Of a stretch of 64,000 bases of DNA, positions 3,071-25,425 are shown in pieces (within the stretch, counting starts at the first letter, position 1; every line of letters starts with the position of its first letter). The DNA comes from Frigoribacterium sp. PhB24 (GTDB lineage Bacteria; Actinomycetota; Actinomycetes; Actinomycetales; Microbacteriaceae). The stretch spans positions 496,001-560,000 of the forward strand of contig NZ_RKIC01000010.1 in NCBI RefSeq assembly GCF_003755185.1, given 5' to 3'. Both the position numbers and the translations under genes were made by a program. The notes under the pieces are model-generated. The model did no database searches, had not been told where the DNA came from, and worked only from the letters and a program-made list of their open reading frames with translations.

Positions 3071-3138
3071 GGACCGACCGTGGGCGTGCCCGGCATTCTG
3101 CCGCACGTCCCCACCATCGAGACTCGAAGAGGTTCACC

Positions 3139-4788
3139 GTGGCACTACAGGGCGTTGGCGTCGGACGTGGAGTGGCCGTCGGCCCCGTCAAGAAGATGCC
3201 CGATCCGCTGCCCGAGCCGGGCACCGACCCTCGCACGGCGGACGCGGCCATCGAGTACGACGCCGTGCTCACGGCCCTGTCCGCCGTCGCCGCCGACCTC
3301 ACGGCGCGGGGCGAGAAGGCCGGTGGGGAGGCGAAGGACGTCCTCGACGCCCAGTCGCTGATGGCGCAGGACCCGACCCTCACCGACGACGTGAAGGCGC
3401 GCATCGACGACGGTCGCACCGGCGAACGCGCCGTCCACGAGGCCTTCGCGGCCTTCCAAGAGCTGCTGGTCGGCATGGGCGGCTACATGGCCGAGCGCGC
3501 CACCGACCTCGGCGACGTCGCACAGCGCGTCATCGCCTCGCTGCGCGGGGTCCCCGCTCCGGGCGTGCCCGAGAGCGACACCCCCTTCGTGCTCGTCGCG
3601 CCCGACCTCGCCCCCGCCGACACCGCGCTGCTCGACCTCGACAAGGTGCTCGCGCTCGTCACCCGTGACGGCGGTCCCACGTCGCACACGGCCATCCTCG
3701 CGCGGTCGAAGTCGATCCCCGCCATCGTCGGGGTGACCGGCGCGCTCGACCTGGCCGACGGGACCGTCGTCGTGGCTGACGCCGCGACCGGCGTGGTGAC
3801 GGTCGACCCCTCCGCCGACGAGATCGCCGATGCCGAGAAGCGCATCGCCGACCGTGCCGCCGCAGCCGCCGCCCCTCTCACCGACGGTGCGCTGGCCGAC
3901 GGCCACGCCGTCCCGTTGCTCGCCAACCTCGGTGCGCCGGGTGAGGCGGCGGGCGCGATCGAGCTCGGTGCCGAGGGCGTGGGCCTGTTCCGCACCGAGT
4001 TCCTGTTCCTGGGCAACTCCTCCGCGCCCACCGTCGAGAGCCAGACCGCGAGCTACACCGCTCTGCTCGAGGCCTTCCCGGGCAAGAAGGTCGTGGTCCG
4101 TGCGCTCGACGCGGGCGCCGACAAGCCCCTCAGCTTCCTGAACGACGCCCACGAAGAGAACCCCGCGCTCGGTCTGCGCGGCCTCCGCGCGCTGCGGGTC
4201 AAAGAAGACATCCTGCGTGACCAGCTGACCGCGCTCGCCGAGGCGCAGGCCGCGACCACCGCCGACCTCTGGGTCATGGCGCCCATGGTCAGCGACGCGG
4301 AAGAGACCGAGTACTTCGTCACCCTGGGCCGCGAGCTCGGCCTGAAGACCGTCGGCGTGATGGCCGAGGTCCCCTCGCTCGCCGTGCTCGCCGACCAGAT
4401 CTTCGCCAGCGCCGACTTCGTCAGCGTGGGCACCAACGACCTGACGCAGTACACGATGGCGGCCGACCGTATGCTCGGCTCGGTGGCCGCCTACCAGGAC
4501 CCGTGGCACCCGGCCGTGCTGCGCCTGGTCAAGTCGCTCGGTGATGCCGGTGCGGCGGCGGGCAAACCGGTGGGCATCTGTGGCGAGGCCGCGGCCGACC
4601 CGCTCCTGGCCGTGGTGCTCGTCGGTCTCGGTGCCACCACGCTCTCGATGACGCCGGCCGCGCTGGCCGACGTGCGTCTCGAGCTCTCGCGGTACTCCCT
4701 CGAGCAGGCTCGTGCCCTCGCGGCCGCCGCCGTCGCCGCGACCACCGCAGCCGGCGCACGAGAGGCCGCCGAAGCCGTCACCGCCTGA
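3139..4788 (+). CDS. ptsI: PTS enzyme I (phosphoenolpyruvate-protein phosphotransferase)
   Basis: Takes phosphate from phosphoenolpyruvate and passes it to HPr, driving all PTS sugar uptake; cytoplasmic. The 549-residue length is normal for a compact enzyme I. Order seen: HPr-binding N-terminal part (about 1-145), the phospho-histidine swivel with GGPTSHTAILAR (active His183), and a C-terminal PEP-binding barrel with GLFRTEFLFL, a VVRALDAGADKP block, and the closing SVGTNDLTQY and CGEAAADP blocks. The start is a GTG behind AGAGG; the frame is open further upstream but lacks enzyme I sequence. No HPr gene lies beside it, which is unusual though known in actinobacteria. Its nearest PTS partners here are the IIA and IIB genes about 17 kb downstream. 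Confidence 0.95.
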   Translation: MALQGVGVGRGVAVGPVKKMPDPLPEPGTDPRTADAAIEYDAVLTALSAVAADLTARGEKAGGEAKDVLDAQSLMAQDPTLTDDVKARIDDGRTGERAVHEAFAAFQELLVGMGGYMAERATDLGDVAQRVIASLRGVPAPGVPESDTPFVLVAPDLAPADTALLDLDKVLALVTRDGGPTSHTAILARSKSIPAIVGVTGALDLADGTVVVADAATGVVTVDPSADEIADAEKRIADRAAAAAAPLTDGALADGHAVPLLANLGAPGEAAGAIELGAEGVGLFRTEFLFLGNSSAPTVESQTASYTALLEAFPGKKVVVRALDAGADKPLSFLNDAHEENPALGLRGLRALRVKEDILRDQLTALAEAQAATTADLWVMAPMVSDAEETEYFVTLGRELGLKTVGVMAEVPSLAVLADQIFASADFVSVGTNDLTQYTMAADRMLGSVAAYQDPWHPAVLRLVKSLGDAGAAAGKPVGICGEAAADPLLAVVLVGLGATTLSMTPAALADVRLELSRYSLEQARALAAAAVAATTAAGAREAAEAVTA

Positions 4789-13555: not shown

Positions 13556-13609
13556 GTCAGCCATACCCACCCGGCGCGCCTCGTGCCGGGCTGCACCCTG
13601 GAGGACAAC

Positions 13610-14695
13610 TTGACTACAACTGCGCGCAAGGCCGTGCTCAGCGGCCTCGCCCTGGCGAGCACCGCCGTCATCCTGGCCGGCTGTGCCTCGGCCCCCGAGA
13701 GCGGCTCTGGCTCGACCAACGGCGCCTCGAGCGACTTCGTCCCTTGCATGGTCTCCGACGCCGGCGGCTTCGACGACAAGTCGTTCAACCAGCTCGGCTA
13801 CGAGGGCCTCACCGAGGCCGCCGAGACCATCGGATCGACCCCGAAGACGGTCGAGTCGGCCGACGAGACGGTCTACGACGCCAACCTGTCGAACCTCGCC
13901 GACCAGGGCTGCAACCTGATCGTCACGGTCGGCTTCGCGCTCGCCGACGCCACCAAGGCGGCGGCCGAGGCGAACTCGAACATCAACTACGCCACCATCG
14001 ACGACGCCTCGATCACGGCCGACAACGTGCAGCCGATCACCTTCAACACCTCCGAGGCCGCTTTCCTCGCGGGGTACGCGGCAGCGAGCTACTCGAAGAC
14101 CGGCGTCGTCGGCACCTTCGGCGGCATGCAGTTCCCGACCGTCACGATCTTCATGGACGGCTTCGCCGACGGCGTGAAGTACTTCAACGAGCAGAAGAGC
14201 AAGGACGTCAAGGTCGTCGGCTGGGACGTCGACTCGCAGACCGGCAGCTTCACCGGTGGCTTCGAGGCCGGGACCACGGCCAAGCAGAGCGCTCAGACGC
14301 TGATCGACCAGAACGCCGACGTGATCCTGCCGGTCGGCGGCCCGATCTACCAGAGCGCCGCCGAGGCGATCCGCGACTCCGGCAAGGACGTCGTCCTGGT
14401 CGGTGCCGACAGCGACACCTACGAGACCGACAGCGCGAACAGCGACCTGTTCCTCACGTCGGTGCTCAAGGGCATCAAGCAGGCGACCGACGCGGTCGTG
14501 ACCCAGGCCAGCGAGGACAAGTTCTCGAGCACGCCCTACGTGGGCACGCTCGAGAACGACGGCGTCGGCATCGCGTCGTTCCACGACTACGCCGACAAGG
14601 TCGACTCCGGTCTGCAGGACGAGCTCGACACGATCAAGGCCGGCATCATCGACGGCTCGATCGAGGTCGAGTCGCCCTCGGCTCTCACCAGCTGA
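13610..14695 (+). CDS. BMP-family nucleoside-binding lipoprotein
   Basis: Extracellular substrate-binding lipoprotein of an ABC importer, of the BmpA/PnrA type that binds purine or other nucleosides. The 361-residue protein has a signal peptide with a lipobox LAGC (Cys25), then the family motifs DAGGFDDKSFNQ near the N-terminus, NLIVTVGFALADAT, and the AGYAAASYSKTGVVGTFGG hinge region. The start is TTG, chosen because GGAGG lies five bases upstream; the frame continues nine codons upstream to an ATG without a site. It heads a gene set with an ATPase, two permeases and salvage enzymes, separated from the ATPase by a strong hairpin, which suggests higher expression of the binding protein. Confidence 0.9.
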   Translation: MTTTARKAVLSGLALASTAVILAGCASAPESGSGSTNGASSDFVPCMVSDAGGFDDKSFNQLGYEGLTEAAETIGSTPKTVESADETVYDANLSNLADQGCNLIVTVGFALADATKAAAEANSNINYATIDDASITADNVQPITFNTSEAAFLAGYAAASYSKTGVVGTFGGMQFPTVTIFMDGFADGVKYFNEQKSKDVKVVGWDVDSQTGSFTGGFEAGTTAKQSAQTLIDQNADVILPVGGPIYQSAAEAIRDSGKDVVLVGADSDTYETDSANSDLFLTSVLKGIKQATDAVVTQASEDKFSSTPYVGTLENDGVGIASFHDYADKVDSGLQDELDTIKAGIIDGSIEVESPSALTS

Positions 14696-14853: not shown

Positions 14854-16374
14854 ATGAAGCTCGAACTGCGGGGCATCACCAAGCGATTCGGCGCTCTGAC
14901 CGCCAACGACCACATCAGCCTGACCGTCGAGCCCGGCGAGATCCACTGCCTGCTCGGCGAGAACGGCGCCGGCAAGTCCACGCTGATGAACGTCCTCTAC
15001 GGCCTGTACCAGGCCGACGAGGGCGAGATCCTGCTCGACGACGCCGTGCAGCACTTCTCGGGCCCGGGCGACGCCATGGGTGCCGGCATCGGCATGGTGC
15101 ACCAGCACTTCATGCTCGTCCCCGTCTTCACCGTCGCCGAGAACGTCATGCTCGGCCACGAAGAGACCAAGTCCGGCGGCCGTCTCGACCTGTCCGCGGC
15201 CCGAGCGAAGGTGCGCGAGATCAGCAGTCGGTTCGGTTTCGACATCGACCCCGACGCCCTGGTCGAAGAGCTGCCCGTCGGCGTGCAGCAGCGCGTCGAG
15301 ATCATCAAGGCCCTGTCCCGCGACGCGAAGGTGCTCGTGTTCGACGAGCCCACCGCCGTGCTGACGCCGCAAGAGACCGACGAACTCATGGTGATCATGC
15401 GTCAGCTCCGCGACGCCGGCACCGCCATCGTCTTCATCACCCACAAGCTGCGCGAGGTGCGCGAGGTCGCCACCCGCATCACCGTCATCCGCCTGGGCAA
15501 GGTCGTCGGCGAGGCCGAACCGACCGCCTCGAACGCCGAGCTCGCCTCGCTCATGGTCGGGCGCGCCGTCGAGCTCACCGTCCAGAAGGCCCCGGCCGAG
15601 GCCGGTGAGCCCGCCCTGGTGGTCGAGAACCTCCGGGTCGTCGACCCGATCGGGCAGGTCGTCGTGGACGACGTCTCGTTCGAGGTCCGTCGTGGCGAGA
15701 TCCTCGCCATCGCCGGCGTCCAGGGCAACGGCCAGACCGAGCTCACCGAGGCGATCCTCGGCCTGCAGCCCCGTGTCGAGGGTCGGGTCTCGCTCGACGG
15801 GCGCGACATCACGGGCCGCAGCGTGCGCCAGGTGCTCGACGCCGGTGTCGGTTTCGTCCCCGAGGACCGCAACCAGGACGGCCTCGTCGGTGAGTTCACC
15901 GTCGCCGAGAACCTCATGCTCGATCGCTCGCAGTCCGGCCCCTTCGTGAAGCGTGGCTCCCTGAAGCTCGCCGACCTCGCGGCCTTCGCCGTCGCCAAGG
16001 TGAAGGAGTTCGACATCCGCACCCAGGGCATCGCCACGCCCGCGGGCCGCCTCTCGGGCGGCAACCAGCAGAAAGTCGTGCTGGCGCGCGAGCTCAGCCG
16101 CGACCTGCGGCTCTTCGTCGCCGCTCAGCCCACCCGCGGCATCGACGTCGGCTCGATCGAGTTCGTGCACAAGCGCATCGTCGAGACCCGCGACCAGGGC
16201 GTGCCCGTCATCGTCGTCTCGACCGAGCTCGACGAGGTCGCCGCCCTGGCCGACCGCATCGCCGTGATGTACCGCGGCACCATCGTCGGCATCGTGCCGG
16301 CGGACACCCCTCGCGACGTGCTGGGGCTCATGATGGCCGGCGAGATGCCGCAGGGAACGGAGCAGGCAGCGTGA
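14854..16374 (+). CDS. Nucleoside ABC transporter ATP-binding protein (two-domain)
   Basis: Energises import of nucleosides; peripheral on the cytoplasmic face. The 506-residue protein has two ATPase domains like RbsA/NupO. The first has an intact Walker A GENGAGKST (residues 35-43), the LPVGVQQRVEI signature loop and VLVFDEPTAVL Walker B. The second has a degenerate Walker A (GVQGNGQTE) but a strong LSGGNQQKVVLAREL signature and AAQPTRGID. The ALDEV-type H-loop reads VSTELDEV. This asymmetry is normal in the family. The ATG lies in CTGAGATG; the next gene overlaps its stop by four bases (GTGA). Confidence 0.94.
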   Translation: MKLELRGITKRFGALTANDHISLTVEPGEIHCLLGENGAGKSTLMNVLYGLYQADEGEILLDDAVQHFSGPGDAMGAGIGMVHQHFMLVPVFTVAENVMLGHEETKSGGRLDLSAARAKVREISSRFGFDIDPDALVEELPVGVQQRVEIIKALSRDAKVLVFDEPTAVLTPQETDELMVIMRQLRDAGTAIVFITHKLREVREVATRITVIRLGKVVGEAEPTASNAELASLMVGRAVELTVQKAPAEAGEPALVVENLRVVDPIGQVVVDDVSFEVRRGEILAIAGVQGNGQTELTEAILGLQPRVEGRVSLDGRDITGRSVRQVLDAGVGFVPEDRNQDGLVGEFTVAENLMLDRSQSGPFVKRGSLKLADLAAFAVAKVKEFDIRTQGIATPAGRLSGGNQQKVVLARELSRDLRLFVAAQPTRGIDVGSIEFVHKRIVETRDQGVPVIVVSTELDEVAALADRIAVMYRGTIVGIVPADTPRDVLGLMMAGEMPQGTEQAA

Positions 16375-17645
16375 GCGACGCCACGACCACCACGCAGGGG
16401 CCGGGTACACCACCCGCCCCGTCGTCACCGGAGTCCACAGAGGGGCGCGGCTCGCGCCTCCTGCGAGAGATCACGACCGGCAACGCGCTCATCTCCGTGC
16501 TCGCCGTCGTGCTGGCACTCGTCGTCTCGGGCCTCCTGATCGGGTTCACCGACACCACCGTGCAGGGCACGCTGGGGTACTTCTTCTCCCGTCCGGCCGA
16601 CTTCTTCCAGGCGTTCTGGGCCGCGGTCGGCGGGTCGTACTCGTCGCTGTTCCAGGGCGCGATCTACAACTTCCGGGTCGACGGTTTCGCGGCGGGCATC
16701 CGTCCGCTGACCGAGACCTTGAACTACGCCGTGCCGCTCATCGCCGCGGGCCTCGGCGTCGCGGTGGCGTTCCGGGTGGGACTGTTCAACATCGGTGCCC
16801 GCGGGCAGATGCTGATGGCCTCGGCAGCCGCGGGCTGGGTGGGCTTCTCGTTCCACCTGCCGCTCGCCGTGCACCTTCCCCTCGCCCTCGCCGCCGGCAT
16901 CGCGGCGGGTGCGCTCTGGGGAGGCATCGTAGGTTTGCTGAAGGCCCGGACCGGCGCACACGAGGTGATCCTGACGATCATGCTCAACTACATCGCCTTC
17001 TACCTGCTGGCCTTCATGCTGCGCACGCAGGGGTTGCTCCAGGCTCCGGGCAGCGCGAACCCGAAGTCGCCCGCGACGCTCGACACGGCGATCCTGCCCG
17101 ACCTGTTCGGCGCCCGCTACAACCTCAACTGGGGCTTCGTGCTGGTCATCGTCATCACGGCGGTCGTCTGGTGGTTGATCAACCGGTCGACGCTCGGTTT
17201 CCGGTTCCGTGCCGTGGGCGAGAACCCGCACGCGGCCCGCACGGCCGGCATGAACGTCAAGAACATCTACCTCTACGCGATGCTCATCTCGGGCGCCCTC
17301 GCGGGCGTGGCCGGCTCGACGCAGGTGCTCGGCACGCTGACCAGCGGCTTCACCTCGGGCATCGACGCGGGCATCGGGTTCGACGCGATCACCGTCGCGC
17401 TGCTCGGTCGCTCGCGGCCGTGGGGCGTGTTCGGCGCCGGCGTCCTGTTCGGGGCGCTCAAGGCGGGCGGGTACTCCATGCAGGCCGCCAACGGCGTGCC
17501 GATCGACATCGTGCTCGTCGTGCAGTCCCTCATCGTGTTGTTCGTGGCCGCGCCCCCGCTGGTCCGAGCGATCTTCCGTCTGCCGGCCCCGGGCCTCCGC
17601 CCGGTGCGCAAGGCCTCGAACAAGGAGGCGGTGGTCACCAAGTGA
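16371..17645 (+). CDS. Nucleoside ABC transporter permease 1
   Basis: A 424-residue membrane permease of the branched-chain/simple-sugar type (BPD_transp_2), paired with the next gene. After a soluble N-terminus of about 40 residues there are about eight to ten hydrophobic segments. The cytoplasmic coupling region RAVGENPHAARTAGMNVK, which contacts the ATPase, is the family hallmark, followed by the GFDAITVALLGRSRPWGV block. The GTG start overlaps the ATPase stop by four bases, and its own stop overlaps the next start in the same way. It acts with the lipoprotein and ATPase; substrate specificity for nucleosides is inferred from the salvage genes downstream. Confidence 0.92.
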   Translation: MSDATTTTQGPGTPPAPSSPESTEGRGSRLLREITTGNALISVLAVVLALVVSGLLIGFTDTTVQGTLGYFFSRPADFFQAFWAAVGGSYSSLFQGAIYNFRVDGFAAGIRPLTETLNYAVPLIAAGLGVAVAFRVGLFNIGARGQMLMASAAAGWVGFSFHLPLAVHLPLALAAGIAAGALWGGIVGLLKARTGAHEVILTIMLNYIAFYLLAFMLRTQGLLQAPGSANPKSPATLDTAILPDLFGARYNLNWGFVLVIVITAVVWWLINRSTLGFRFRAVGENPHAARTAGMNVKNIYLYAMLISGALAGVAGSTQVLGTLTSGFTSGIDAGIGFDAITVALLGRSRPWGVFGAGVLFGALKAGGYSMQAANGVPIDIVLVVQSLIVLFVAAPPLVRAIFRLPAPGLRPVRKASNKEAVVTK

Positions 17646-18931
17646 GCACGCTCACCCCCGACACCGCGGTCCCCGCCGCCCCGTCGCCCGACCTGGCCCG
17701 GGCCACGACCCGCAGCCTCAAGGCTCCGATCGCCTTCGCGATCTTCACCGTCGTGGCCGCCGTGTTGTTCCTCGGCCTGGCCCGCGACGGCGAGAGCACG
17801 TTCCGCCTGTCGACCGCGACGGACTTCTTCGCCCTGCCCGACGCCGTCCTGCCGGCCGCCGGCACCGGCATCGTGCTCACGGTCCTGTTGGCCGTCGTCA
17901 CCGTGATCGCCGCGCTCCGCGCGATCCGCTTCGAGAAGGTGCCGATCTGGCTGGTCGCCGTGTTCGGCGTCCTGTTCCTGCTCGGCTTCCTCACCTGGGC
18001 GAGCGCCGGTCAGACCATCCCGGTGCCCGGTCTGCTGCTCGGCGCTCTCGCGCTCAGCACCCCGCTGATCTTCGGTGCCCTCGGGGGCGTCATCAGCGAG
18101 CGGGTCGGCGTCGTCAACGTCGCGATCGAGGGGCAGCTGCTCGCCGGCGCCTTCGTCTCCGCGATGGTCGCCTCGGCGACCGGTTCGGCCTACGTCGGCC
18201 TGATCGGGGCGATGATCGCGGGCGTGCTCGTGTCGATGGTGCTCGCGGTCTTCAGCATCCGCTACATCGTCGACCAGGTGATCGTCGGCGTCGTGCTCAA
18301 CGTGCTCGTCACGGGCCTCACCAGCTTCCTGTACTCGCAGGTGCTCTCGAAGTCCGAGTCGCTGAACCGCGGGGTGCGCTTTCCGCAGCTCGACATCCCG
18401 GTGCTCAGCCAGATCCCGATCGTCGGGCCGGTCTTCTTCCGCCAGACGATCATCGTCTACCTGATGTACATCGCGATCGCGGTCGTCTTCTACGGTTTGT
18501 TCCGCACCCGGTGGGGGCTGCGCCTCCGATCGGTGGGCGAGCACCCGCAGGCGGCCGACACCGTGGGCATCAAGGTCAACGCCACCCGTTTCTGGAACGT
18601 CTCCCTCGCGGGTGCCATCGCCGGTCTCGGCGGGGCCTACTTCACGCTCGGCTCACTGGGCAACTTCCAGAAAGAGATGACGGCGGGCGCGGGCTTCATC
18701 GCCCTGGCGGCGGTCATCTTCGGTCGCTGGGACCCGATCCGGGCCACGCTCGCGGCACTCCTCTTCGGTTTCGCGAGCAACCTGCAGAACGTGCTCGGTG
18801 CCATCGGCTCGCCGGTGCCCAGCGAGTTCATGCTCATGTTGCCGTACGTCGTGACGATCTTCGCGGTCGCCGGCCTGGTCGGGCAGTCCCGGGGCCCCGC
18901 GGCCTCGGGCAAGCCCTACATCAAGTCGTGA
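17642..18931 (+). CDS. Nucleoside ABC transporter permease 2
   Basis: A 429-residue partner permease forming a heterodimeric channel with the preceding one. A cytoplasmic N-terminus (about 30 residues) is followed by some ten hydrophobic stretches. The coupling motif RSVGEHPQAADTVGIKVN and the GFIALAAVIFGRWDP block match the second subunit of BMP-type transporters. The frame is open upstream, but the GTG at 17642, within the GTGA overlap with the first permease, is the best start. The stop overlaps the start of cytidine deaminase by four bases, so uptake and salvage are directly coupled. Confidence 0.92.
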   Translation: MSTLTPDTAVPAAPSPDLARATTRSLKAPIAFAIFTVVAAVLFLGLARDGESTFRLSTATDFFALPDAVLPAAGTGIVLTVLLAVVTVIAALRAIRFEKVPIWLVAVFGVLFLLGFLTWASAGQTIPVPGLLLGALALSTPLIFGALGGVISERVGVVNVAIEGQLLAGAFVSAMVASATGSAYVGLIGAMIAGVLVSMVLAVFSIRYIVDQVIVGVVLNVLVTGLTSFLYSQVLSKSESLNRGVRFPQLDIPVLSQIPIVGPVFFRQTIIVYLMYIAIAVVFYGLFRTRWGLRLRSVGEHPQAADTVGIKVNATRFWNVSLAGAIAGLGGAYFTLGSLGNFQKEMTAGAGFIALAAVIFGRWDPIRATLAALLFGFASNLQNVLGAIGSPVPSEFMLMLPYVVTIFAVAGLVGQSRGPAASGKPYIKS

Positions 18932-19365
18932 CGGCCCGCAGCAGCGAGTCGGTCGTCGCCGAGACCGACTGGGACGCGCTCCGTGAGGCCGCCCGCGACG
19001 CCATGCGCAAGGCGTACGTGCCGTACTCGAGGTTCCCGGTGGGGGCAGCCGCCCTCACCGACGACGGCCGGGTGGTCTCGGGGTGCAACGTCGAGAACGC
19101 CTCGTACGGCATCACCCTCTGCGCCGAGTGTTCGCTCGTGTCCGACCTCGTGATGACGGGCGGCGGACGGCTGGTCGCGTTCGCCTGCGTCGACGGCAAC
19201 GGCGGGGTCCTCATGCCGTGCGGTCGCTGCCGGCAGCTGCTCTACGAACACTCCGACGAGGCCATGGTGCTCGACACCGTCTCGGGCTTCAAGACCATCG
19301 ACGAGGTGATCCCCGACGCGTTCGGGCCGCGCCAACTCGAGCAGTACCGGGCCTCGCAGAGCTGA
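18928..19365 (+). CDS. cdd: Cytidine deaminase
   Basis: Deaminates cytidine and deoxycytidine to uridine and deoxyuridine in pyrimidine salvage. The 145-residue length is typical of the tetrameric bacterial form. The zinc site is visible: Cys65-Ala-Glu67 (the glutamate is the proton shuttle) and Cys98 and Cys101 in MPCGRCRQLL. The substrate-binding VPYSRFPVGAAAL and NVENASYG segments are intact. The GTG start overlaps the permease stop by four bases. An 80-base gap follows before deoA. Confidence 0.95.
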   Translation: MTARSSESVVAETDWDALREAARDAMRKAYVPYSRFPVGAAALTDDGRVVSGCNVENASYGITLCAECSLVSDLVMTGGGRLVAFACVDGNGGVLMPCGRCRQLLYEHSDEAMVLDTVSGFKTIDEVIPDAFGPRQLEQYRASQS

Positions 19366-19445: not shown

Positions 19446-20741
19446 GTGACCCAGAACGCCGTCGAACCGTTCGACACCGTCGACCTCATCCGCGTCAAAC
19501 GGGGCGGCGACGCCCTCAGCACCGAGCAGATCGACTGGTTGATCGACGCGTACACGCGCGGCTACGTCGCGGACGAGCAGATGTCGGCGTTGACCATGGC
19601 CATCTTCCTCAACGGCATGGAGCGTCGCGAGATCCGTGACATGACCATGGCCATGATCCGGTCGGGCGAGACGATGGACTTCGCCGGACTCGGCAAGACG
19701 ACCGTCGACAAGCACTCCACCGGCGGTGTCGGCGACAAGATCACCCTGCCGCTGGCCCCTCTGGTCGCGTCGTTCGGCGTCGCGGTGCCCCAGCTCTCGG
19801 GTCGGGGCCTCGGCCACACCGGGGGCACGCTCGACAAGCTCGAGTCGATCCCGGGCTGGCAGGCGTCCATCTCGAACGAGCGCATGCGCGAGATCATGGC
19901 CGACAGCGGTGCCGTGGTCTGCGCCGCCGGTTCGGGCCTGGCCCCGGCTGACGGCAAGCTCTACGCGCTCCGCGACATCACGGGCACCGTCGAGGCCATC
20001 CCGTTGATCGCGTCGTCGATCATGAGCAAGAAGATCGCCGAGGGGACCGCGGCGTTGGTCCTCGACGTCAAGTTCGGTTCGGGCGCGTTCATCCAGGACA
20101 TCGAGAGGTCGCGCGAGCTGGCTCGCACCATGGTCGACCTCGGCACCGACGCCGGCGTCGCGACCACGGCTCTGCTCACCGACATGAACGTGCCGCTCGG
20201 CCTGACCATCGGCAACGCCCTCGAGGTGCGCGAGTCGGTCGAGACCCTCGCCGGAGGGGGGCCGGCCGACATCCGCGAGCTCACCGTCGCCCTCGCCCGC
20301 GAGATGCTGACCCTGGCGGGTCGGCCCGATGCCGACGTCGAGGCCGCCCTCGACGACGGCCGCGCGATGGACGCCTGGAAGCGCATGATCCGAGCCCAGG
20401 GCGGCGACCCCGACGCCGCGCTGCCGACCGCCCGCGAGACGCACGTCGTCACCGCCGGCGGCACGGGCTACCTGACCGAGCAGCACGCGCTGCCCTTCGG
20501 CATCGGCGCCTGGCGCCTCGGCGCCGGTCGCGCCCGCAAGCAGGACCCCGTCCAGGCCGCCGCCGGCATCGAGCTGCACGCGAAGCCGGGTGACCGGGTG
20601 ACCCAGGGGCAACCCCTGTTCACGCTGCACACCGACGAGCCCGGCCGGTTCGAGCGGGCGCTGGAGGCCGTCGAGGGCGCCTGGACGATCGGCGACGAGG
20701 CCCCGGCGGCACGCACCATCGTCGCGGAGCGGATCGGCTGA
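19446..20741 (+). CDS. deoA: Thymidine / pyrimidine-nucleoside phosphorylase
   Basis: Splits thymidine (and perhaps uridine) with phosphate into base and (deoxy)ribose 1-phosphate. The 431-residue protein has the phosphate-binding KHSTGGVGDKITLP signature, the SGRGLGHTGGTLDKLES block that holds substrate-contact residues, and the LVLDVKFGSGAF block. The C-terminal domain after about residue 345 carries the biotinyl-like fold ending in the PAARTIVAERIG tail. The GTG start follows AGGAG with six bases of spacing; the frame upstream is in another gene. The name depends on substrate range: it could be the pyrimidine-nucleoside phosphorylase Pdp. Confidence 0.92.
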   Translation: MTQNAVEPFDTVDLIRVKRGGDALSTEQIDWLIDAYTRGYVADEQMSALTMAIFLNGMERREIRDMTMAMIRSGETMDFAGLGKTTVDKHSTGGVGDKITLPLAPLVASFGVAVPQLSGRGLGHTGGTLDKLESIPGWQASISNERMREIMADSGAVVCAAGSGLAPADGKLYALRDITGTVEAIPLIASSIMSKKIAEGTAALVLDVKFGSGAFIQDIERSRELARTMVDLGTDAGVATTALLTDMNVPLGLTIGNALEVRESVETLAGGGPADIRELTVALAREMLTLAGRPDADVEAALDDGRAMDAWKRMIRAQGGDPDAALPTARETHVVTAGGTGYLTEQHALPFGIGAWRLGAGRARKQDPVQAAAGIELHAKPGDRVTQGQPLFTLHTDEPGRFERALEAVEGAWTIGDEAPAARTIVAERIG

Positions 20742-20877: not shown

Positions 20878-21999
20878 ATGAGCGCTCCCGACAAGGACTA
20901 CCGGCTGCCGAACGGGGGCCCGCGCTTCGCGGCGCTGCCGAAGGTCTCGCTGCACGACCACCTCGACGGTGGCCTGCGACCCGAGACCGTCGTCGAGTTG
21001 GCGATCGAGGCCGGGGTCGACCTCCCCGCCACCGAGCCCGAGGCGCTCCGTCGCTGGTTCGTCGAGAACGCCGACTCGGGCAACCTCGTCGACTACCTCG
21101 CGACCTTCGACCTGACGGTCGCGGTCATGCAGACCGCCGACCACTTGACCCGCGTCGCCCACGAGTTCGTCCTCGACCTGGCCGCCGACGGCGTCGTCCA
21201 TGCCGAGGTGCGCTGGGCACCCGAGCAGCACCAGCGACTCGGACTCACGTTGGACGAGGCGGTCGAGGCGGTGCAGTCCGGCTTCGCGTCGGCCGTTCGG
21301 TCGCTCGCCGCCGACGGGTACGAGATCTCGGTCGGGCAGATCCTCAGCGCGCTGCGCCAGGGCGAACGATCGCTCGAGATCGCGCAGCTCGCCGTCCGGC
21401 ACCGAGAGAACGGCGTGCTCGCGTTCGACATCGCCGGGCCCGAGGCGGGGTACCCGGCCGCCGATCACAGGGTCGCCTTCGACCTGTTGGCCCGCGAGTT
21501 CATGCCCGTCACGGTGCACGCGGGCGAGGCGGACGGCCTCGACAGCATCCGTGGTGCGTTGATCGACGGGCGGGCCCTCCGCCTCGGCCACGGCGTGCGC
21601 ATCGCAGAGGACATCCGCGTCGTCGCCAGCAAGGGCTCGACCTCCACGGTCGAGATCGGGCCGATCGCCTCATGGGTGCGTGACCGCGAGATCCCTCTCG
21701 AGTTGTCGCCGCAGTCGAACCTGCAGACCGGCGCCGTCGCCGCCTGGGGCCGAGACCTCGACGACCACCCCTTCGACCTCCTGTACCAACTCGGGTACAG
21801 CGTGACGGTCAACACCGACAACCGTCTGATGAGCGACACGAGCCTCTGCAAAGAGCTCGCCCTGCTCGGCCAGGCCTTCGACTACGACCTCGACGACCAC
21901 GAGACGTTCCAGCTCAACGCCGCCGCGTCGTGCTTCCTGCCGCTCGAGGATCGCGAGGCGTTGGCCGATCGCATCACCGCCGGCTTCGAGGGGGTCTGA
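20878..21999 (+). CDS. add: Adenosine deaminase
   Basis: Converts (deoxy)adenosine to (deoxy)inosine, feeding purine nucleoside phosphorylase. The 373-residue TIM-barrel protein has the zinc-binding His26-x-His28 in SLHDHLDGG, the HAGE block with the catalytic glutamate, LGHGVRI, LSPQSNLQT, and VNTDNRLMS, where the metal-binding aspartate lies. This last block reads TDN rather than TDD, which is common in actinobacterial members. No signal peptide is present. It is followed two bases later by the PTS IIA gene, so the three genes to 22750 form one unit. It starts 6 bases after a -10 box. Confidence 0.92.
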   Translation: MSAPDKDYRLPNGGPRFAALPKVSLHDHLDGGLRPETVVELAIEAGVDLPATEPEALRRWFVENADSGNLVDYLATFDLTVAVMQTADHLTRVAHEFVLDLAADGVVHAEVRWAPEQHQRLGLTLDEAVEAVQSGFASAVRSLAADGYEISVGQILSALRQGERSLEIAQLAVRHRENGVLAFDIAGPEAGYPAADHRVAFDLLAREFMPVTVHAGEADGLDSIRGALIDGRALRLGHGVRIAEDIRVVASKGSTSTVEIGPIASWVRDREIPLELSPQSNLQTGAVAAWGRDLDDHPFDLLYQLGYSVTVNTDNRLMSDTSLCKELALLGQAFDYDLDDHETFQLNAAASCFLPLEDREALADRITAGFEGV

Positions 22000-22001
22000 G
22001 C

Positions 22002-22448
22002 ATGGCGCTTCCCCCGCTGCCCGACGAGGCGGTCGTCATCGGAGCCCGGGTCGCCGACTGGCGCGAGGCCGTGCGACTCGCCGGTCACGCGCTGGTGGAC
22101 TCCGGTGTGGCCCGCGAGGGCTACGGCGACGAGATGGTGCGCATGATCGACGAGCACGGCCCCTACGTGGTCATCGCGCCCGGCCTCGTGCTCGCCCATG
22201 CCCGCCCGGGTGACGACGTCGTCCGCGACGGCCTGGCCGTGGTCACGTTGGCCGAGCCGGTGCCGTTCGGACACCCGCACAACGATCCCGTCAGCGTGGT
22301 CCTCGGTCTCGCCATCGTCACGGTCGGCGGCCACCTCGAGTCGATCGCCGACCTCGCCAACGTGTTCAACGAGGCCTCCGTCATCCCCGCCCTCGCGGCC
22401 GCCACCTCGGTCGACGAGGTGCGTCGGTTGATGGGCGTCTCCGCCTGA
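22002..22448 (+). CDS. PTS sugar transporter IIA component (ascorbate/fructose-mannitol type)
   Basis: A 148-residue IIA protein that takes phosphate from HPr. The active-site histidine is probably His66 in PGLVLAHARPG, and the upstream DEHGPYVVIAP and downstream FGHPHNDPVSVVLGLA segments resemble UlaC-like IIA proteins. It begins two bases after the add stop and precedes the IIB gene by 29 bases. No IIC membrane subunit is encoded in the window, so it either serves a distant IIC or has a regulatory role. The name of the substrate is therefore open. Confidence 0.85.
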   Translation: MALPPLPDEAVVIGARVADWREAVRLAGHALVDSGVAREGYGDEMVRMIDEHGPYVVIAPGLVLAHARPGDDVVRDGLAVVTLAEPVPFGHPHNDPVSVVLGLAIVTVGGHLESIADLANVFNEASVIPALAAATSVDEVRRLMGVSA

Positions 22449-22477
22449 CCATCCCTCGACAGATCGAGACAGCCCCC

Positions 22478-22750
22478 ATGAAGATCGTCACCATCTGCGG
22501 CGCCGGCATCGGCAGCAGCGGAATCCTCAAGGTCAACGCCGAGCGGGTGCTGGCCAGGCTCGACATCGAGGCCGACGTGGTCGCGGCCGACATCGGCTCG
22601 ATCGCCTCGGTCGGCGACGACGCGCAGGTCATCCTGACGTCGGCCGAGTTCGTCGAGGCGATCGGCTCGACGTTCGCCGACGTCATCGTCATCCAGAACC
22701 ACTTCGACCAGGCCGAGCTCACCGAGAAGCTGCAGAAGTCGCTCGGCTGA
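22478..22750 (+). CDS. PTS sugar transporter IIB component (ascorbate/lactose type)
   Basis: A 90-residue IIB protein with a phosphate-accepting Cys7 in the loop TICGAGIGSSG, typical of the UlaB/lactose-cellobiose IIB fold, followed by alternating beta and helix segments (VVAADIGSIAS, DVIVIQNHFD). Length matches the family. It receives phosphate from the IIA encoded just upstream and would normally pass it to a sugar held by IIC. That partner is absent; the gene is followed by a strong hairpin. The pairing with adenosine deaminase suggests a link to nucleoside or pentose use, but this is inference. Confidence 0.85.
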   Translation: MKIVTICGAGIGSSGILKVNAERVLARLDIEADVVAADIGSIASVGDDAQVILTSAEFVEAIGSTFADVIVIQNHFDQAELTEKLQKSLG

Positions 22751-22796: not shown

Positions 22797-22833
22797 GAGG
22801 CCCCGGAGGAGCTGGTCGCGCCTCCGGGGCCTC
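22797..22833. terminator. Bidirectional hairpin terminator between PTS IIB and the phosphosugar mutase gene
   Basis: A perfect 13-base-pair stem (GAGGCCCCGGAGG and its complement) with an 11-base loop lies between the convergent genes, 46 bases from each. Confidence 0.8.
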
Positions 22834-22879: not shown

Positions 22880-24595
22880 TCAGGCCAGCAGGGCGCGCAT
22901 GCCTGCGTCGAGGTCGGCCACGGCCGCCTCGGCAGCGGTCCGACGGGCGACGGCGTCGCCCTCGGTGCTGGACGCGTCGATGTAGACCTTGAGCTTCGGC
23001 TCGGTGCCGCTCGGGCGGACGATGACCCGAGAGCCGTCGGTCAGCCAGTAGCGCAGCACGTCTCCCGCCGGGAACGACCCGAACCCGTCCCGGAAATCGT
23101 CGATCCGGTCGACGCGGTGTGAGCCGATGGTCGAGGGCGGGCGCTGCCGAAGGCGGGTCGTGAGGGCCGTGATCGTGGCGAGGTCGTCGACCCTGATCGA
23201 GATCTGCGACGAGGCGTAGGCCCCGAACCGCTCGTCGAAGGCGACGAGGTGCTCGGCCAGGCTCGAGCCGGCGGTGTGCAGCTCGGTCGCGAGGGCGAGC
23301 AGGTCGACCGCGGCCGAGATGCCGTCCTTGTCACGCACGACGTCGGGGTCGACGAGGTAGCCGAGCGCCTCCTCGTAGCCGTAAAGCAGCCCACCGACGC
23401 GGGAGACCCACTTGAATCCGGTCAGGGTGTCGACGTAGTCCAACCCGTGCACCCGCGCGATCTCGCGCAGGGCGGGGGAGGAGACGATGCTCGCGGCGAG
23501 GGTGCCGTCTCGGTCGTCCCGACGCGCGCGCTCGGCGGCACGCCAGCCGAGCAGCGAGCCGACCTCGTTGCCGCTGAGGCGACGCCAGCCGCCGTCGACG
23601 GGGATCGCGACCGCGAGCCGGTCGGCGTCGGGGTCGTTGGCGATGACCAGGTCGGCCCCGACGCGGTCGGCCGTGGCGTACGAGAGGTCCATGGCGCCGG
23701 GCTCTTCGGGGTTGGGGAAGGCCACGGTCGGGAACGCCGGGTCGGGTGCGCTCTGCTCGCTGACCGGGATCGGTTCGGCGAAGCCCGCCGTGGCGAAGAC
23801 GCGGCGGGCGACCTCCCACCCGACGCCGTGCATGGCGGTGTAGACGACGCGGGGCTGGCGACCCGTGGCCGCCGTGCCGGCCACGGCGGCGGTGCGACGG
23901 ACGTACTCCAGGACGAGGTCGTCGCCGGCCTCGCGGTAGTCGTCGGAGCGCGGTAGATCGGTGACGGGGGACTGCGCCGCATTCTCGATCTCGGCCGCGA
24001 TCTCTCCGTCGACGGGTGACACGATCTGCGACCCGGCGTCGACGCCGCCGAGGTAGACCTTGTAGCCGTTGTCCTGCGGCGGGTTGTGGCTCGCGGTGAC
24101 CATGACGCCGGCGCTGACGTCGAGCTGACGCACGGCGAAGGCCAGCACCGGGGTCGGCAGGGCGCGGGGCAGGATCGTCGCGGCGACGCCGGCCGCCGCC
24201 ATGATCTCGGCGGTGTCACGTGCGAAGACGTCGGAGTTCTTGCGCCCGTCGTAGCCGATGACGATCGAGGGGTGGGCTTCGCGGCCCCGCAAGAACGCCG
24301 CGAAGCCGGCCGCGGCCTGCGCCACGAGCACGCGGTTCATGCGGTTCGACCCCGAGCCCAGGGCGCCGCGCAGGCCGGCGGTGCCGAACTGCAGGCGACC
24401 GGCGAACCGGTCGGTGAGTTCATCCAGGGCGTCGGAGTCGTCGGCCCCGGCCCGGGTCAGCAGGCGGTCGAGCTCGTCGCGCGTCTCGTCGTCGGGGTCC
24501 TGGTCGCGCCAGGCCGTGGCCGTCGCGAGGAGCCGTTCGAGGTCCGCCGGTGCCGAGGCGCCGGCGGTGCCGGCCCCCGTCACGTCGTCGCTCAC
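22880..24595 (-). CDS. Phospho-sugar mutase (phosphomannomutase/phosphopentomutase-like)
   Basis: A 571-residue alpha-D-phosphohexomutase family enzyme. The catalytic serine is Ser169 in VTASHNPPQDNGYKVY; the metal-binding loop is DPDADR; the sugar-specificity loop is near GYEEALGYL; and the phosphate-binding RPSGTEPKLKVY lies near the C-terminus. The GTG start overlaps the purine nucleoside phosphorylase stop by four bases. That coupling suggests it may convert the ribose 1-phosphate released by that enzyme to ribose 5-phosphate, as PMM/PGM-type phosphopentomutases do; it could instead supply mannose 1-phosphate to ManC. The family is firm, the substrate is not. Confidence 0.85.
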   Translation of the reverse strand: MSDDVTGAGTAGASAPADLERLLATATAWRDQDPDDETRDELDRLLTRAGADDSDALDELTDRFAGRLQFGTAGLRGALGSGSNRMNRVLVAQAAAGFAAFLRGREAHPSIVIGYDGRKNSDVFARDTAEIMAAAGVAATILPRALPTPVLAFAVRQLDVSAGVMVTASHNPPQDNGYKVYLGGVDAGSQIVSPVDGEIAAEIENAAQSPVTDLPRSDDYREAGDDLVLEYVRRTAAVAGTAATGRQPRVVYTAMHGVGWEVARRVFATAGFAEPIPVSEQSAPDPAFPTVAFPNPEEPGAMDLSYATADRVGADLVIANDPDADRLAVAIPVDGGWRRLSGNEVGSLLGWRAAERARRDDRDGTLAASIVSSPALREIARVHGLDYVDTLTGFKWVSRVGGLLYGYEEALGYLVDPDVVRDKDGISAAVDLLALATELHTAGSSLAEHLVAFDERFGAYASSQISIRVDDLATITALTTRLRQRPPSTIGSHRVDRIDDFRDGFGSFPAGDVLRYWLTDGSRVIVRPSGTEPKLKVYIDASSTEGDAVARRTAAEAAVADLDAGMRALLA

Positions 24596-25425
24596 AGCGC
24601 CGCCACGATGCGAGCGAGCAGGTCGCTGATCTTCGCCTCGGCGTCGCGCCCGGCCTCGAGCACCTCGGCGTGGCTGAGCGGGGTCTTCTGGATGCCCGCG
24701 GCGAGGTTCGTGATCAGGGACATGCCCAGCACCTCCATGCCGGACTGGCGGGCGGCGATGGCCTCGAGGGCCGTCGACATGCCGACGATGTGTCCGCCGA
24801 TCGCCTTGGCCATCTGCACCTCGGCGGGCGTCTCGTAGTGGGGCCCGCGGAACTGGGTGTACACGCCCTCGTCGAGGGACGGGTCGATGCCGCGCGCGAG
24901 GTCGCGCAGGCGAGCCGAGTAGAGGTCGGTCAGGTCGATGAACGTGGCGCCCTCGAGCGGCGAGTCCGCCGTGAGGTTGATGTGGTCGCTGATCAAGACG
25001 GGTGTGCCGGGTTTCCAGGTCTCCCTGATGCCGCCGGCACCGTTCGTCAGGATCATCGTGGTGGCACCCGTCGCGGCGGCCGTGCGGACGCCGTGCACGA
25101 CCCGGCGCACGCCGTGGCCCTCGTAGTAGTGCGTGCGGGCACCCATGACCAGGGCGTGCTTGCCCGAGGGCAGGGCGATGCTCCGGATCGAGCTCGTGTG
25201 GCCGACGACGGCCGACGCCGCGAAACCGGTGATCTCGGTCGCCGGGACCTCGGCGACGGTCTCGCCGATCAGGTCGGCGGCCTTGGCCCAGCCGCTGCCC
25301 AGGGTCAGGGCGATGTCGTGCCGGGCGACGCCGGTCTTCTCGGCGATCTCGGCGGCGGCGGTGCGGGCGACCTCGAAGGGGTCGGCCGCGCGGTCGTCGA
25401 GCGGGTGCGTGGTGGTCTCAGACAT
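24592..25425 (-). CDS. punA: Purine-nucleoside phosphorylase
   Basis: Phosphorolyses inosine and guanosine to free base and ribose 1-phosphate. The 277-residue protein is the trimeric class. It shows the phosphate-binding LTLGSGWAKAADLIG, GARTHYYEGHG, the ILTNGAGGI block and the base-binding QFRGPHYETPAEVQM; the asparagine expected for guanine/hypoxanthine recognition lies near SLITNLAAGI. I chose the ATG at 25425, which has a TAGAGT -10 box seven bases upstream; the frame is open for 46 codons more but that extension is low complexity. It is followed directly by the mutase gene. Confidence 0.92.
   Translation of the reverse strand: MSETTTHPLDDRAADPFEVARTAAAEIAEKTGVARHDIALTLGSGWAKAADLIGETVAEVPATEITGFAASAVVGHTSSIRSIALPSGKHALVMGARTHYYEGHGVRRVVHGVRTAAATGATTMILTNGAGGIRETWKPGTPVLISDHINLTADSPLEGATFIDLTDLYSARLRDLARGIDPSLDEGVYTQFRGPHYETPAEVQMAKAIGGHIVGMSTALEAIAARQSGMEVLGMSLITNLAAGIQKTPLSHAEVLEAGRDAEAKISDLLARIVAAL

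Follow-up and report, generated by a model that had tools for sequence, protein, structure and literature searches.

Genes of the Locus

The window analyzed here is a stretch of 64,000 nucleotides from the genome of Frigoribacterium sp. PhB24 (contig NZ_RKIC01000010.1, positions 496,001 to 560,000 of the forward strand). On its plus strand, genes for nucleoside uptake and salvage are followed by two PTS genes, in the order nucleoside ABC importer, cdd, deoA, add, PTS IIA, and PTS IIB. The importer includes a PnrA/BMP-type receptor lipoprotein (13583..14695; PF02608, E 1.6e-46), an ATPase (14854..16374; PF00005), and two permeases (16371..17645 and 17642..18931; both PF02653). Downstream are the genes for cytidine deaminase (cdd, 18928..19365; NF004064), thymidine phosphorylase (deoA, 19446..20741; NF004490), and adenosine deaminase (add, 20878..21999, 373 aa; PF00962, E 1.3e-81). 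The product of the add gene scored 507.1 bits in the equivalog-level test for adenosine deaminase (NF006847, cut-off 412). The last two genes encode a PTS EIIA of the fructose/mannitol/ascorbate superfamily (22002..22448, 148 aa; PF00359) and a PTS EIIB (22478..22750, 90 aa; PF02302). The nearest named relatives by IIA identity (95-98%) belong to Frigoribacterium.

The close spacing of add, IIA, and IIB described in the original prediction was confirmed. The add stop codon ends at 21999 and the IIA ATG starts at 22002, leaving 2 nt between them; the IIA stop codon ends at 22448 and the IIB ATG starts at 22478, leaving 29 nt. The cluster also contains no IIC gene, as had been stated. From this spacing, together with the conservation reported below, we infer that the three genes are cotranscribed.

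Two genes are located convergently to this cluster on the minus strand: a phosphomutase of the PGM/PMM family (22880..24595; PF02878-PF02880, PF00408) and a purine nucleoside phosphorylase (24592..25422; above the cut-offs of both NF006054 and TIGR01698). A perfect 13-bp hairpin with an 11-nt loop was found between the IIB and phosphomutase genes (22797..22833), and the 133 nt around it have a folding z of -2.36. The strong terminator previously placed after IIB is thus represented by this hairpin, but a U-tract is absent and a terminator scan found none; the hairpin is a possible bidirectional terminator. The window additionally contains, about 17 kb upstream of add, the ptsI gene for Enzyme I (3112..4788, plus strand; TIGR01417 above cut-off, and domains PF05524, PF00391, and PF02896). 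Its start codon is uncertain, the reading frame being open from 2989, and its product carries the His motif GGPTSHTAILAR.

The IIA and IIB Proteins

Both PTS proteins are members of their families, with 75.8 bits for IIA against PF00359 (cut-off 27) and 43 bits for IIB against PF02302 (cut-off 23.6). The closest solved chains are 3oxp_A for IIA (E 3.5e-23) and 3czc_A for IIB (E 9.2e-7). Among known systems, the pair resembles the ascorbate-family UlaABC: IIA is closest to UlaC (PRK10372, 89.8 bits) and IIB to UlaB/UlaBC. Both scores fall well short of the equivalog level of UlaABC, however: IIA reached 89.8 bits against a cut-off of 187, and IIB 31.6 bits against a cut-off of 138.

The predicted phosphoryl-acceptor residues are invariant. 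His66 of IIA is a His in all 65 aligned rows, including 54 of the 54 add-linked ones, and is retained in the aligned rows even where IIB is lost. Cys7 of IIB is a Cys in all 54 aligned rows, 44 of the 44 add-linked ones included. In comparison with 12 Frigoribacterium loci, dN/dS was 0.04-0.22 for IIA, 0.03-0.30 for IIB, and 0.07-0.32 for add. Both IIA and IIB are under purifying selection.

Residues specific to the add-linked group were counted with small-genome rows and duplicate loci left out. In the add-linked IIB (37 rows), 14 near-invariant positions have residues seldom seen among the 28 IIC-linked rows; the add-linked IIA (47 rows) has 3 group-specific positions. These residues may reflect a new contact surface or shared descent alone.

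IIC Genes in the Genome of Frigoribacterium sp. PhB24

In total, four PF00359 IIAs and four PF02302 IIBs were found in this genome. One pair is that of the window, beside add. A second lies on contig C5 in an UlaA operon, a third on C1 (337 kb) beside a PF02378 IIC, and the fourth on C2 (76 kb) with both domains in one 699-aa frame, presumably a fused fructose-type permease. Permeases of both the PF03611 and PF02378 families are present in the genome. The only PF03611 (UlaA/GatC) IIC (C5:71523) is located on another contig than the add-linked pair and is directly preceded by its own IIA (C5:70751) and IIB (C5:71200). An UlaA-type IIC devoid of its own IIA and IIB, to which the pair might belong, was thus sought and not found, and an UlaA-type partner, near or distant, was rejected for this genome.

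Conservation of the add-IIA-IIB Order

Forty loci, one per genus, were picked among the stronger IIA matches. The add gene is located upstream of IIA in all 40, IIB comes next in 35, and no IIC was found beside the pair at any of them. The named loci are the best 80 of 422 relatives; in every one of them, IIA lies between add on the upstream side and IIB on the downstream side. Of 24 weaker IIA matches, 13 are linked to add and 7 to IIC, one is an IIA-IIB pair with neither, and three belong to another IIA type.

The 40 one-per-genus, 13 weaker, and 80 named loci make up 133 add-linked loci. In all of these, add and IIA have the same orientation, with a median gap of 3 nt and a gap of at most 120 nt in 130 loci. 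Where IIB is present (123 loci), its gene overlaps that of IIA by 4 nt in 89 cases. In the other 10 IIB is absent, for which at least four changes are needed on the IIA tree; in these, IIA may be the last step of the relay. The order add-IIA is conserved. Long open frames suggested add-IIA fusion proteins; a frame check found none in the 133 loci. Three streamlined genomes (1.1-1.5 Mb) carry the genes from the ABC ATPase to IIA, including cdd, deoA, and add, as one nearly gapless run.

No importer permease gene was found within the limited stretch inspected in four of the 40 loci (L050, L051, L056, and L064), all of which have add. The constancy of add where no permease was found leans toward add as the partner of the PTS pair. 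Correlations of tree distances were modest and did not single out add as the partner of IIA: the raw and partial values were 0.33 and 0.20 for add-IIA, compared with 0.48 and 0.40 for the IIA-IIB pair and 0.27 on both measures for permease 1-IIA. Some loci have further genes near add, named from sequence: a nucleoside-hydrolase-like gene in L056, L060, and L064, joined in L056 and L064 by an S-adenosylhomocysteinase-like one.

IIC Genes in Microbacteriaceae

The family sample comprised 249 genomes, in which the presence of IIA was called at E ≤ 1e-10. IIA was found in 181 of them; in at least five (G003, G024, G062, G185, and G211), the best match is not linked to add. When the 68 IIA-negative genomes were searched with profile A1, 26 showed weak matches (E 2.6e-18 to 2.4e-7), some of them adjoining PF02378 IICs (e.g., G159, G097, and G016).

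An UlaA/GatC-type (PF03611) IIC was found in only 32 of the 249 genomes, and a glucose/fructose/mannitol-type (PF02378) IIC in 178. Among the 181 IIA-bearing genomes, 149 have no PF03611 IIC, and an UlaA-type partner was rejected for most genomes carrying IIA. In 28 of the 181, herein referred to as IIC-less, neither PF03611 nor PF02378, the two IIC families covered by the search, was found. At least 90% completeness was found for 23 of the 28. The locus was inspected in 17 IIC-less genomes: add and IIA are present in all 17 and IIB in 15 (absent in G009 and G136).

In the family, 31 UlaA-type IIC loci were inspected. IIB is located beside IIC or fused to it in all 31. IIA was found within the stretch in 24 of these loci, and one locus is cut by the contig edge. 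In the remaining six (L300, L318, L319, L320, L321, and L324), where IIB follows IIC or is fused to it, no IIA was detected within about 9 kb. A IIC-IIB fusion was seen in five of the six (L300, L318, L319, L320, and L324).

The proposal that the pair serves a IIC encoded elsewhere is thus weakened, since the UlaA-type IIC of Frigoribacterium sp. PhB24 is equipped with its own IIA and IIB, and most IIA-bearing genomes lack PF03611, some of them PF02378 as well. There is good support for the view that, in most genomes carrying it, the pair functions without a cognate UlaA-type IIC.

Origin of the add-Linked Pair

At a threshold of E ≤ 1e-20, the IIA profile matched 35 of the 297 genomes of the order, 24 of these belonging to other families. 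One locus was inspected in 20 of the 24 genomes: IIA and IIB are followed by an UlaA-type IIC in all 20, and add is absent from each of the 20 stretches. Complete IIA-IIB-IIC operons were also found within Microbacteriaceae (G020, G024, G062, G100, and G211, among others). In one such IIC-linked operon (L085, G020:C23:159786-160214), one TAA was observed inside the IIA match range. The existence of intact operons in both the order and the family agrees with derivation of the add-linked pair from an UlaA-type IIA-IIB-IIC operon, which probably lost its IIC.

On the IIA tree, 47 of the 54 add-linked rows form one starred clade, and the remaining 7, all from small genomes, are placed elsewhere on long branches. 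A single clade for all 54 rows was not rejected (p-AU 0.454), a result that allows one origin of the add-linked IIAs without demonstrating it. The row adjoining the add-linked clade is the IIA of locus L109 (G062). There, at about 7.0-11.4 kb, an IIA-IIB-HPr cluster is located by genes for a ROK-like regulator and Enzyme I (names assigned from sequence); no IIC was found in the 13-kb stretch that contains this cluster.

Candidate Phosphoryl Donors: Enzyme I, HPr, and DhaM

Enzyme I was found in all 181 IIA-bearing genomes of the family, and the 24 genomes that lack Enzyme I all lack IIA as well (Fisher p 9e-16, a figure weakened by uncorrected kinship and by the proximity of the two loci on the chromosome). 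Since Enzyme I was found without IIA in 44 genomes, there are further reasons for its retention. Both genes are absent from G161, G177, and G183, belonging to genera g21, g53, and g66, whose other members have both. Co-loss of Enzyme I and IIA is possible in these three genomes, of which G177 is 88% and G183 is 87% complete.

An HPr domain was found in 26 of the 28 IIC-less genomes; in the other two, both incomplete, it was not found. DhaM, recognized by PF03610 and HPr in one frame, is present in 19 of the 28. In 15 (e.g., G028, G060, and G063), the sole detected HPr domain is the one inside DhaM. The other 11 have an HPr match outside DhaM: it is a canonical small HPr in G006, G009, G044, and G127, is degenerate in G136, and lies at the head of a long frame in G235. 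With HPr found only inside DhaM in 15 genomes and not at all in two, the standard HPr step is not assured there. In the DhaM-only genomes, either the HPr domain of DhaM feeds IIA, or an HPr was missed, or IIA works unphosphorylated. Enzyme I may thus work with the HPr of DhaM alone in 15 of the 28 IIC-less genomes.

Possible Role of the IIA-IIB Pair

The original prediction offered two readings of the pair: service to a IIC elsewhere, or a phosphorylation relay modifying salvage. With the former weakened, no IIC found beside the pair in relatives, and the gene order largely kept, the relay, with its proposed phosphorylation, signal, and target, is favoured. On the evidence of the gene neighborhood, we give somewhat better than even chances to IIA and IIB being a transporter-less regulatory PTS phosphorelay that acts on nucleoside salvage. 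Retention of the pair without a transporter suggests that it signals energy state to nucleoside recycling and does not serve sugar transport.

We infer the following phosphoryl flow, signal, and target. In Microbacteriaceae, IIA and IIB would be a signaling arm within the operon for nucleoside uptake and salvage. The relay would start with phosphorylation of Enzyme I by PEP and continue to HPr, either free or perhaps as the HPr domain of DhaM; the phosphoryl group would pass on from HPr to His66 of IIA and from there to Cys7 of IIB. The phosphorylation state would track PEP/pyruvate and, through contact with one of the salvage proteins, determine whether nucleoside catabolism is permitted or restrained. 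The candidate targets are adenosine deaminase, as the nearest and most constant neighbor, and then the nucleoside ABC importer.

It seems unlikely that IIA and IIB are the soluble components of a conventional transporter whose IIC, of the UlaA type, an IIC-IIB fusion without IIA, or a member of an unrecognized family, is encoded elsewhere. IIA and IIB are indeed of the UlaC/UlaB kind, a partner might come from another IIC family (PF13303, PF03609, PF03608, or PF07663), and the six UlaA-type IIC loci without IIA could borrow the add-linked IIA. However, sharing of IIA leaves the retention of the add-linked IIB unexplained, IIB being already beside or fused to IIC at every UlaA-type locus inspected, and the 149 genomes without PF03611, of which 28 also have no PF02378, argue against a transporter of this kind.

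A PEP-driven soluble kinase module, in which IIB (or IIA) phosphorylates a soluble substrate or enzyme of nucleoside or pentose metabolism, is still less probable. PTS proteins are known to feed a soluble kinase: in DhaKLM, DhaM passes the phosphoryl group to DhaL-bound ADP. Given this precedent, the DhaM-type proteins of 19 IIC-less genomes and the nucleoside and pentose enzymes encoded next to the pair agree with such a module, but the gene runs inspected show no constant extra kinase-like acceptor gene, and IIB is dispensable in the 10 add-linked loci without it. Alternatively, the genes could be decaying leftovers of a lost transporter that have no function today, which would account for the missing IIC and for the further loss of IIB in some genera; the low dN/dS, the invariant active residues, the constant spacing with add, and the retention of the pair in streamlined genomes make this very improbable.

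Comparison with Known Systems

The regulatory phosphorelay proposed here can be compared with several known systems. The pair has the same IIA-IIB order as the complete UlaABC-like operons of the order; unlike them, it has no cognate IIC and sits in a nucleoside operon. In DhaKLM, the PTS output likewise goes to a soluble process, and DhaM is a possible phosphoryl donor in part of the genomes analyzed here. In contrast to DhaKLM, whose EIIA belongs to the Man family, the present proteins belong to PF00359 and PF02302, and the cluster contains no Dha genes. The proposed logic, in which the phosphorylation state of an EIIA restrains the uptake or use of another carbon source, is that of inducer exclusion by EIIA-Glc, which acts on ABC and other importers; the EIIA family is different, however, and the target in Microbacteriaceae is only a candidate.

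The genes of PTS-Ntr (EI-Ntr, NPr, and EIIA-Ntr/PtsN) are linked to rpoN. The Enzyme I of the window has only the three domains listed above, without the N-terminal GAF domain of EI-Ntr. As in PTS-Ntr, the PTS of Brucella melitensis is a relay maintained in the absence of a permease, with a proposed role in regulating metabolism (PMC2937029). In contrast to both, the pair described here is found in another phylum, includes an EIIB in the branch, and is located beside add instead of rpoN. Retention of the PTS phosphoryl chain without transporters in some bacteria, and the fusion of EIIA-Man to HPr in Leifsonia xyli, encoded in one operon with the genes for dihydroxyacetone kinase, are described in sections of Comas et al. 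(2008; PMC2405797), which do not mention an add-linked IIA/IIB pair. No description of add-linked EIIA/EIIB was found in the open-licence literature searched at the level of titles and starts of abstracts.

In many members of Microbacteriaceae, a large actinobacterial family of soil, plants, and fresh water, EIIA and EIIB are retained apparently without a transporter, under selection and tied to nucleoside salvage. Genes for PTS EIIA and EIIB are usually annotated as parts of sugar transporters. Tentatively, at slightly less than even chances, these proteins form a family-wide signaling branch with a Cys-phosphorylated EIIB, no EIIC, and a connection to salvage, in which DhaM-only members without a known transporter would inform the salvage of purines and pyrimidines about PEP/pyruvate (or about dihydroxyacetone flux). 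The regulatory reading is directly testable because the candidate partners share one operon. If it is true, nucleoside use in Actinobacteria would be under PEP-driven control, an EIIB could persist without a membrane partner, and many transporter annotations, including those in streamlined genomes, would need correcting.
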